DNA from: Bacteroidota bacterium
GTDB taxonomy: Bacteria > Bacteroidota > Ignavibacteria > Ignavibacteriales > Melioribacteraceae
Length of the DNA: 39,819 bases
Assembly (NCBI GenBank): GCA_018829545.1
Contig: JAHJTX010000217.1
Coordinates: 1-39,819 of the forward strand
Direction of reading: 5' to 3'
Part shown: positions 24,108 through 26,251 of the stretch, piece after piece
Layout: every line of letters begins with the position of its first letter
Position numbering within the stretch: position 1 is the stretch's first letter
Made by a program: the position numbers and the translations under genes
Notes under the pieces: generated by a model
What the model was told of the DNA's origin: nothing
The model's input: only the letters and a program-made list of their open reading frames with translations
Databases searched by the model: none

Positions 24108-25058
24108 CTATTCAATTCCTTGTTCTTCTAACCAGCGCTGTGAATCTAAAGCCGCCATACATCCTGTTCCCGCCGCGGTTATTGCCTGCCTGTAAGTTTT
24201 ATCTTGAACATCGCCTGCAGCAAAAACGCCTTCAATATTTGTGTGGGTTGTGCCCGGTTTTACAATCAGATAACCGGTTTCATCCATATTCAATTGCCCT
24301 TTGAACAATTTAGTATTCGGCTGATGACCAATTGCCATAAAAATTCCATCAGCTTGAATCTCTTTAGTACTGCCGTCTTTTGTGTTCTCTAAAATTGCCC
24401 CGGTTACTAATTTCCTGCCGTCCTCTTCTGTGCCTATGATTTCTTTAATAACCGAATTCGTTGCGAATTTAATTTTGAGATTTTTTTCTGCTCTTTCAAT
24501 CATAATCTTTGATGCTCTAAATCCCTCTCTTCTATGAATCATTGTAACTTCGGAAGCAAATCTCGTTAAATAATTCGCTTCTTCAAATGCAGTATCGCCG
24601 CCGCCGACAATCAAAACTTTTTGATTTCTGAAAAAGAATCCGTCGCAGGTTGCGCAAGCGGAAACGCCATAACCCATAAATTTCTTTTCGCTTTCTATTC
24701 CAAGAAGTTTTGCCGACGCTCCGGTCGAAATTATTACAGAATCTGCTGTGTAAACTTCATCATTGGATTTAACGATAAACGGACGCTGGGAAAAATCGAC
24801 TTCGGTGATTTCCTTAAAAAATGATTTTGCGCCGAAACGCGTAACTTGTTTGCGCATTACGTCCATTAATTCTGGACCTTGAATGCCGTTTTCAAAACCG
24901 GGAAAATTTTCAACTTCTGTTGTGATTGTTAACTGTCCGCCCGGCTGCATTCCTTCAAAAATTATTGGACTTAAATTTGCTCTTGCGGTGTATAGCGCCG
25001 CTGTTAATCCCGCTGGACCTGAGCCAATTATTATAACTTTGTGATGATTATCCGACAT
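24108..25058 (-). CDS. trxB: Thioredoxin-disulfide reductase
   Basis: 316 residues, the low-molecular-weight FAD/NADPH enzyme. The FAD-binding GSGPAG is at 11-16, the redox-active CATC at 134-137, a second NADPH dinucleotide motif is VGGGDTAFEEA, and the C-terminal FAD motif is EGVFAAGDVQDKTYRQ. Thioredoxin itself is not adjacent. Upstream on the minus strand a TATTTTTG box fits the -7 element of Bacteroidota promoters loosely. Confidence 0.96.
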   Translation of the reverse strand: MSDNHHKVIIIGSGPAGLTAALYTARANLSPIIFEGMQPGGQLTITTEVENFPGFENGIQGPELMDVMRKQVTRFGAKSFFKEITEVDFSQRPFIVKSNDEVYTADSVIISTGASAKLLGIESEKKFMGYGVSACATCDGFFFRNQKVLIVGGGDTAFEEANYLTRFASEVTMIHRREGFRASKIMIERAEKNLKIKFATNSVIKEIIGTEEDGRKLVTGAILENTKDGSTKEIQADGIFMAIGHQPNTKLFKGQLNMDETGYLIVKPGTTHTNIEGVFAAGDVQDKTYRQAITAAGTGCMAALDSQRWLEEQGIE

Positions 25059-25205
25059 ATTATTCTCCGTATTTACATTTTATCAATTGCAGTTTTACCT
25101 ACAAAAATAAAATTATTTCGCTTAAGTAGCATTTATTTCTGAATAGTAAGATTCACAAAAAGGACAAAGGGTTCATTTCAATTGATGATGGAAAGAATCT
25201 TATTT

Positions 25206-25334
25206 ACTCACTTTACGCAAAATGAAAAAAATGCTGGGCGATTTCGCTGCCTTGTTCAATTGAGAATCGCTCAGTCAATTTAGTATTTAAGGAGCGAAAC
25301 AGCGTTTCGCTCTACATTTTTGCGTAACGTGAGT
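25206..25334. mobile_element. 129-bp MITE-like element with 19-20-bp terminal inverted repeats and TATTT duplication
   Basis: The left end (25206-25224, ACTCACTTTACGCAAAATG) is the reverse complement of the right end (25315-25334, CATTTTTGCGTAACGTGAGT) apart from one mismatch and one extra T. The element is bordered on both sides by TATTT (25201-25205 and 25335-25339), as expected for a 5-bp target duplication. Inside is a perfect 9-bp hairpin, GAGCGAAAC-AGC-GTTTCGCTC (25292-25312). There is no coding capacity, so any transposition must depend on a transposase elsewhere. Confidence 0.7.
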
Positions 25335-26251
25335 TATTTAATAAATTCCGCATTTCGCTTCAGTCCTTTTAACCGCGCTCTGCTGATTGGACTAATGCTA
25401 AACTTTTTCTTGAATTGACTATTGGTCATTTCATCAATTTCACTAAAATTCAATTGCTTGTTCACAGGATGAAGAAAATCATGATCTGAAGTCAAAACCG
25501 AGAACTTTTTATTCCATGGACAAACATTCTGGCAAATATCACAACCAAAAATCCAGTCGTCAAAATGCTTATTAAATTCTGCCGGGATTTCTCCTTTATT
25601 TTCAATAGTTAAGTACGAAATGCATTTAGTGGAATCCAAAACATATTCATCAATTATTGCATCGGTGGGACAGGCCTCAATGCACGCAGTACACGAACCG
25701 CAGTGATCTGTATCAATTTTGCTGTAATCAAATATGAAATTCGTAATTACCGTGGAAATGAAAAACCAACTCCCAATTTCGCGCGAAATAACATTTGTGT
25801 GTTTTCCCATCCAACCGAGACCCGATTTTACCGCCCACACTTTATCCATCACCGGACCGGTGTCAACGTATGCTTTTGCGTTAAATTCAGAATCAACAGA
25901 CTGTAATTCATCAATTAGTTCGCTTAATTTTTCCCAAAGAATTATGTGATAGTCCTTAGACCACGCATATCTTGAAACTTTACCGTGCCCTTCAAGAACA
26001 TCATGAGATTCATCGTTATAATAATTATAGCCTAATGAAATTATGCTTTCCGCGTTTTCTAAAATCAATCCGGGATCAGATTTCTTCTCAAGATTGTCAG
26101 CCATATAATTCATATTTGCATGATAATTTTTGGAAAGCCATGTTTTGAGATTGTCAATTTCATGTTCTAATTGCCCGCATTTTGAGAATCCAACAAGACT
26201 GAATCCTAATCTCGCAGCAATTTCTTTAACTGTGGAGTTGCTGATATTCAC
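25334..26251 (-). CDS. queG: Epoxyqueuosine reductase
   Basis: 305 residues. QueG performs the last step of queuosine formation in tRNA using cobalamin and two [4Fe-4S] clusters. The cluster ligands are in HCGSCTACIEACPTDAI and later FGCDICQNVCPWNKKF; the N-terminal half has the conserved YVDTGPVMDKVWAVKSGLGW and GKHTNVI stretch. It lacks the C-terminal HEAT-repeat domain of the longer QueG type. The last base of its stop codon (25334-25336) is contributed by the inserted element, so the original C-terminus may have been a little longer. It is third in an operon with the MBL and Rieske genes (2-bp gap). Confidence 0.93.
   Translation of the reverse strand: MNISNSTVKEIAARLGFSLVGFSKCGQLEHEIDNLKTWLSKNYHANMNYMADNLEKKSDPGLILENAESIISLGYNYYNDESHDVLEGHGKVSRYAWSKDYHIILWEKLSELIDELQSVDSEFNAKAYVDTGPVMDKVWAVKSGLGWMGKHTNVISREIGSWFFISTVITNFIFDYSKIDTDHCGSCTACIEACPTDAIIDEYVLDSTKCISYLTIENKGEIPAEFNKHFDDWIFGCDICQNVCPWNKKFSVLTSDHDFLHPVNKQLNFSEIDEMTNSQFKKKFSISPISRARLKGLKRNAEFIK

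Follow-up and report, generated by a model that had tools for sequence, protein, structure and literature searches.

MITEs that contain a GTAG REP have been described before, as have longer palindromes that contain a REP dimer. In Coxiella burnetii, QMITE2 is described as a small MITE with inverted ends, duplications of 7–11 nt and a GTAG REP inside, occurring for the most part in 3′ UTRs and between genes (PMC5896051; also cited in the review PMC10969869). Anabaena variabilis carries GTAG-15 dimers within long palindromes, a frame described in the relevant section as a palindromic target; the survey in the same source covers GTAG repeats of Proteobacteria, Cyanobacteria, Chloroflexi and the PVC group (PMC3733652). 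On the transposon side, ISAba11 is listed as an IS701-family element (PMC8472584), with 5-bp duplications, TATAG and ATTTA, given in an excerpt of PMC7885321.

The window, meaning the whole stretch of 39,819 nucleotides analysed here, is contig C188 of a 4.1-Mb genome in 408 contigs. Between queG and a gene that we take, from the look of its sequence, to be trxB-like lies a 129-bp element (Table 1) that is very probably a composite MITE—IS701 ends carrying a REP doublet, moved by an IS701-family transposase into TANTA. Like QMITE2, it is a short MITE, bounded by inverted ends and duplications, with a GTAG REP inside; unlike QMITE2, as characterized in the portion of PMC5896051 considered, it has 5-bp duplications, a transposase family identified by matching ends and, as cargo, an inverted REP pair, with several cargos under one end pair. 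A REP dimer lying within a longer palindrome recalls the A. variabilis GTAG-15 arrangement; the difference, to judge by the section of PMC3733652 considered, is that here the surrounding palindrome consists of paired transposon ends flanked by their own duplication and also occurs around other cargo. With the ISAba11 branch of IS701 (PMC8472584, PMC7885321, in excerpt) the system shares 5-bp A+T-rich duplications and a similar size; unlike ISAba11 the element here is geneless, and the likeness is drawn from descriptions, not from sequence. REPINs and their RAYTs, as outlined in parts of PMC3116915 and PMC8266576, provide the parallel for an inverted pair of GTAG-headed hairpins and for a genome in which hairpins of this kind flank the RAYT gene; unlike them, the pair here would move via IS701-type ends, as far as duplications tell.

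The present case adds several things: the end family is identified, duplications included; the cargo is an inverted REP pair; one end pair encloses several cargos; the lineage lies outside the list surveyed in the available part of PMC3733652; and insertion is neutral for the stop codon. Our literature search, for which subscription papers were mostly out of reach, returned no report combining IS701 ends, REP-pair cargo and stop-neutral insertion (nearest were QMITE2 and the GTAG survey) and no paper that brings Ignavibacteria together with insertion sequences and MITEs.

Table 1 Features of the element and flanking genes (positions in the window)
Feature	Position	Strand	Basis
MITE, 129 bp, IS701-type ends and REP-doublet body	25206–25334		Repeat search and BLAST
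Left target-site duplication, TATTT	25201–25205		Sequence read
Right target-site duplication, TATTT	25335–25339		Sequence read
Left terminal inverted repeat, ACTCACTTTACGCAAAA	25206–25222	+	Matches ends of relatives' IS701-family elements
Right terminal inverted repeat, minus strand ACTCACGTTACGCAAAA	25318–25334	−	17 bp identical to G027 IS ends
Intact REP, TGTAG head and hairpin GAGCGAAAC/GTTTCGCTC	25292–25316	−	Pattern site 25294–25316, minus strand
Second REP, inverted, decayed; head TGCTG, not TGTAG	25232–25274	+	Repeat search, alignment
queG, 305 aa	25334–26251	−	TAA = two duplication bases plus last element base
trxB-like gene (presumed), co-directional, downstream of queG; element in the gap between	24108–25058	−	ORF list

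As the original prediction had it, TATTT flanks the element on both sides, and a perfect internal hairpin, GAGCGAAAC-AGC-GTTTCGCTC, occupies 25292–25312 (0 expected, judged by shuffles). The inverted ends, described there as near-perfect over 19–20 bp, are present in shorter form: 17 nt with 16 of 17 positions paired (94% complementary, a single mismatch), separated by 95 nt. Allowing up to 3 mismatches, the end sequence occurs at two sites in the window, both of them element termini, with 0.13 expected. The element has no ORF of at least 80 aa. In alignment, the second REP retains a stem (GCGATT../..AATCGC) around a loop bigger than in most other copies and has lost its GTAG head, leaving the window copy with one intact head; this loss is a point against reading the element as a composite MITE.

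Further copies, foreseen in the original prediction, are abundant. BLAST of the own genome with the element gave 47 matches including itself, the next best being ~76–82% identical, and the end pattern (up to 3 mismatches) gave 80+69 matches against 22+29 for a reversed control. Pairing ends 95–260 bp apart in all own-genome loci fetched produced 50 pairings, of which 47 were kept; three were dropped as false left ends (L009, 142 bp; L005, 183 bp; L196, 194 bp). The 5-bp flanks of the 47 paired-end copies agree at 5/5 positions in 33 copies, 4/5 in eight, 3/5 in four, and 2/5 and 1/5 in one each; a 5/5 match arises by chance in 0.2% of cases (492 of 240,000 random position pairs 125 bp apart). 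The 33 perfect duplications represent 17 different sequences with the consensus T-A-N-T-A. Bodies are of type A, the window's type (20 copies), type B (23), type B′ (one) or other (three). Mean identity among 19 type-A copies of this genome is 85% (69.6–100%), and the window copy shares only 72–84% with the other 18, so by this measure it is an old member of the family. At one locus (L024:274–720, contig C7), a stretch of 450 bp holds three MITEs, of types A and B, in head-to-tail order, each flanked by TATTA or TAATA—repeated insertion into the same target.

Relatives hold full-length partners. Guided by G027, in which three contigs break off 79–93 bp into an element sharing the MITE end (a pattern typical of a collapsed multi-copy IS), we searched this end through the order and obtained matches in 18 of 164 genomes. 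Full-length ISs of 1,177–1,188 bp (~1.18 kb), whose ends match the MITE ends, are present in G099, G022, G027 and G111. The G027 IS (1,183 bp) is bounded by a perfect duplication, TAAGT/TAAGT; agreement is 5/5 there, 4/5 in G111 and G099 and 3/5 in G022, a spread that counts against a composite MITE. Two of the four transposases were scanned, those of G099 and G022, and both match NCBIfam transpos_IS701_2 (NF049921; 326.7 and 325.3 bits, cut-off 250) as well as passing Pfam DDE_5 and DDE_Tnp_1. The string YHKRWKVEEYHKTLK in the transposase presumably corresponds to the Y-R-E-K signature of the IS4-like superfamily. Many copies, site-specific 5-bp duplications and full ISs with the same ends in relatives bear out the original proposal of a non-autonomous element made by transposition. 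The same-ended transposase that it anticipated exists, in relatives, as IS701-family ISs; in the 408-contig assembly of the own genome, the G099 transposase found no match and the IS701_2 model reached only 17 bits at best, an absence that counts against a composite MITE. The G099 query picked up contig-edge pieces as short as 22–31 residues in G022, and 12 of the 20 genomes supplied gave matches. The window copy thus looks orphaned and, its partner transposase not being found in its own genome, is probably immobile now.

Aligned type-A copies run in the order left end, TGTAG-hairpin, spacer, hairpin-CTACA, presenting two outward GTAG heads. TGTA[G/A] stands at both inner ends in 32 of 44 copies of types A, B and B′ and at one end in the remaining 12/44. 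The own genome also encodes a RAYT of 244 aa (L162:1228–1959, contig C342), which passes NF047646 narrowly (81.5 bits, cut-off 80) and scores 21 bits on Pfam Y1_Tnp, below the cut-off of 23, again a point against a composite MITE. GTAG-type hairpins, with stems that differ but are self-complementary, surround the gene. The intact REP of the window copy is 92% identical over 25 bp to these hairpins, and the type-A body 88–92% over 25 bp, making them related, not identical. Two REP-type hairpins also seem to lie in frame inside the RAYT coding sequence (L162:1612–1635 and 1700–1730), with the peptides ...PFVERSEVS... and ...HVKRTDCSHY....

We propose that an IS701-family transposase (Pfam DDE_Tnp_1/DDE_5, NCBIfam transpos_IS701_2) recognizes the outer ~17 bp and that the enzyme, supplied by an autonomous copy, would have moved the element into T-A-N-T-A targets, each insertion leaving a 5-bp duplication; the anatomy is observed and the act of movement inferred. 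Between the ends would sit two inverted, GTAG-headed hairpins of the kind that RAYTs act on, so that IS701 ends would carry REP palindromes round the genome. REP doublets riding on a classical DDE transposon would amount to a second route of spread, whose duplications give a readable record of jumps.

A plainer origin would be a full IS701-type IS that suffered an internal deletion, with the hairpins incidental, and the ends and duplication size do agree with IS701 elements. The interior speaks against it. In BLAST comparisons of the window copy and of type-A, type-B and B′ copies with the four ISs, matches were confined to the outer 31 bp, while the same four copies matched the RAYT locus in their interior units only (20–29 bp, 78–96%). 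Because the ISs match the ends only and the RAYT locus the interior only, the body is, on the strength of these matches, something other than IS701 DNA: two GTAG-headed REPs in inverted orientation, REPIN-like in arrangement. The same ends moreover enclose at least four different palindromic bodies, among them those at L193, L203 and L204, and a simple deletion derivative is accordingly quite improbable. At the opposite extreme, the GTAG heads, the inverted doublet and a RAYT with the same hairpin class would suit a REPIN or BIME spread by the RAYT alone, its IS701-like ends being chance or passenger. In 33/47 copies, however, the 5-bp duplications adjoin IS701-type ends rather than GTAG heads. 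The REP pattern has 37+37 sites in the own genome (0+0 for the reversed control); window-type REPs (AAAC/AAAA stem) account for 26 sites, two of them sharing one context, and 22 of the resulting 25 distinct contexts directly adjoin an IS701-type end in the fetched loci. The other three are C155, with the far end only, C348, with the look of a decayed MITE, and C169, an exact REP alone. With just one exact singlet and two doubtful cases away from IS701 ends in the own genome, independent movement of the doublet here is no more than possible, a point against the composite MITE too. Of all the readings weighed here, spread by RAYT alone is the least credible. C348 had been entertained as a free doublet; its flanks look like decayed ends, and it may be a decayed MITE. 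The exact type-A REP at C169:5007–5029 (L181) has no IS701 ends; it falls in frame within a large ORF whose product has the look of a secreted protein carrying a C-terminal sorting region (VERNSVSLNNDW).

Retention for structure, as a transcription terminator or 3′-UTR RNA element, is also unlikely, if somewhat less so than either origin above. In its favour, all 47 copies lie outside ORFs of at least 150 codons, and the element folds better than shuffles (z −6.5 as DNA, z −4.6 as minus-strand RNA); good folding is as expected of any such palindrome. The one terminator-like match (shuffles give 0.4) is on the plus strand, antisense to both queG and trxB, so the element is not placed to end queG transcripts, and the suggestion that its hairpin marks such an end finds no support. 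A hairpin with a T-run on the queG strand was not found in the element. We looked for strong RNA covariation and saw it only slightly (energy term −0.26, double changes in 4 of 20 predicted pairs); Rfam gave no match at gathering score, its two sub-threshold matches being to eukaryotic families.

For the composite MITE, the queG junction has a simple consequence. As originally claimed, the stop codon (TAA, minus strand, 25336–25334) is formed across the junction, with TA supplied by the duplication and A by the element. The accompanying claim, that the insertion fixed the C terminus of QueG, does not survive reconstruction of the empty site: once the element and one copy of the duplication are taken out, the frame closes at the same TAA after the same 305 residues, ruling out an altered C terminus. 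Since the target closes with TA and the element opens with A, an insertion that splits TAA after its TA would rebuild the codon and leave QueG unchanged. The nearest relatives of this QueG are from Ignavibacteria (Stygiobacter electus, 61%, and MAGs of Melioribacteraceae and Ignavibacteriaceae). Its length in relatives, flagged as a check, is consistent at one level and variable at another: the match extends to residue 304 or 305 in 34 of the 36 relatives with a match, and the tail past the conserved '...KRNA' motif varies, with four residues here and 4–19 in the 12 relatives, out of 29, whose motif was legible; 16 gave no motif match and one was misread.

A stop straddles the junction in 6 of the 47 own copies (ORFs of at least 100 codons), and in all six the empty site restores a stop at the identical place (TAA five times, TAG once). 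A crude ORF and target model predicts 0.5 such insertions (a share of 1.1%, or 1.7% from the window alone). Among 20 elements of other genomes none sits at a stop codon, the flanks of the ten G099 copies being short for this purpose. A preference of the element for stop codons is therefore a lead, unproven because 0/20 elements elsewhere behave so, though the crude model predicts only 0.5. These insertions indicate that a mobile element can settle at a gene end with the protein unharmed, and they counsel caution: a stop codon common to a gene and a mobile element need not imply a changed C terminus.

G099 carries a sister MITE. This genome holds an intact IS together with type-B′ MITEs at 13 places, reduced to ten distinct readable insertions (one copy is cut by a contig start, another has no left flank, and two represent a single insertion). 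All ten have perfect 5-bp duplications, and nine N-free copies are 99.4% identical; judged by these features, the sister MITE was recently active alongside the IS. A class-wide search (E 1e-6, two candidates scored per genome) placed B′-like copies in 5 of 391 genomes, the own genome included. One copy, of B type with TATTC duplications (L290, G217:C347:5517–5628), is 92% identical to the G099 element although its host belongs to another family within the class. The QueG comparison, made for relatives in the order and not for G217 itself, gives 51–62% identity to the window QueG; against this, the 92% suggests horizontal spread of the G217 copy. An A-type composite is carried by G022, of another family. 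A scan of a wider contig collection, of which the own genome is possibly not part, gave 0 stretches with the A-type junction. G029 contains three doublets of the same make free of IS701 ends (L063, L068 and L255): within 60 bp on each side the best end match has 7–9 mismatches of 17, and on the left, the side for which shuffles were made, it is no better than in shuffled sequence.

More speculatively, IS701-type ends may be a general REP carrier in Ignavibacteria, spreading doublets (types A, B and B′ plus three or more further palindromic bodies) whose own RAYTs disperse them poorly, and preferring or tolerating stop codons, where TANTA plus the terminal A rebuilds TAA and offers a safe landing site at gene ends; we hold this broader view only tentatively.

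Two sets of observations concern other cargo. In type-B scaffolds of different genomes (L034, L276, L294 and L296), ends and spacer are kept and the hairpins in the same slots differ (GATCCCG.., ACGAAGC.., ATCCGTTAGC..), as if hairpin modules had been swapped or inserted. A scan of viral contigs for the ends gave six stretches, one of them with paired ends and a TATTA duplication: on a predicted viral contig from IMG/VR (L106:2077–2211), a 135-bp element shares these ends, is flanked by TATTA duplications and lacks GTAG REPs.
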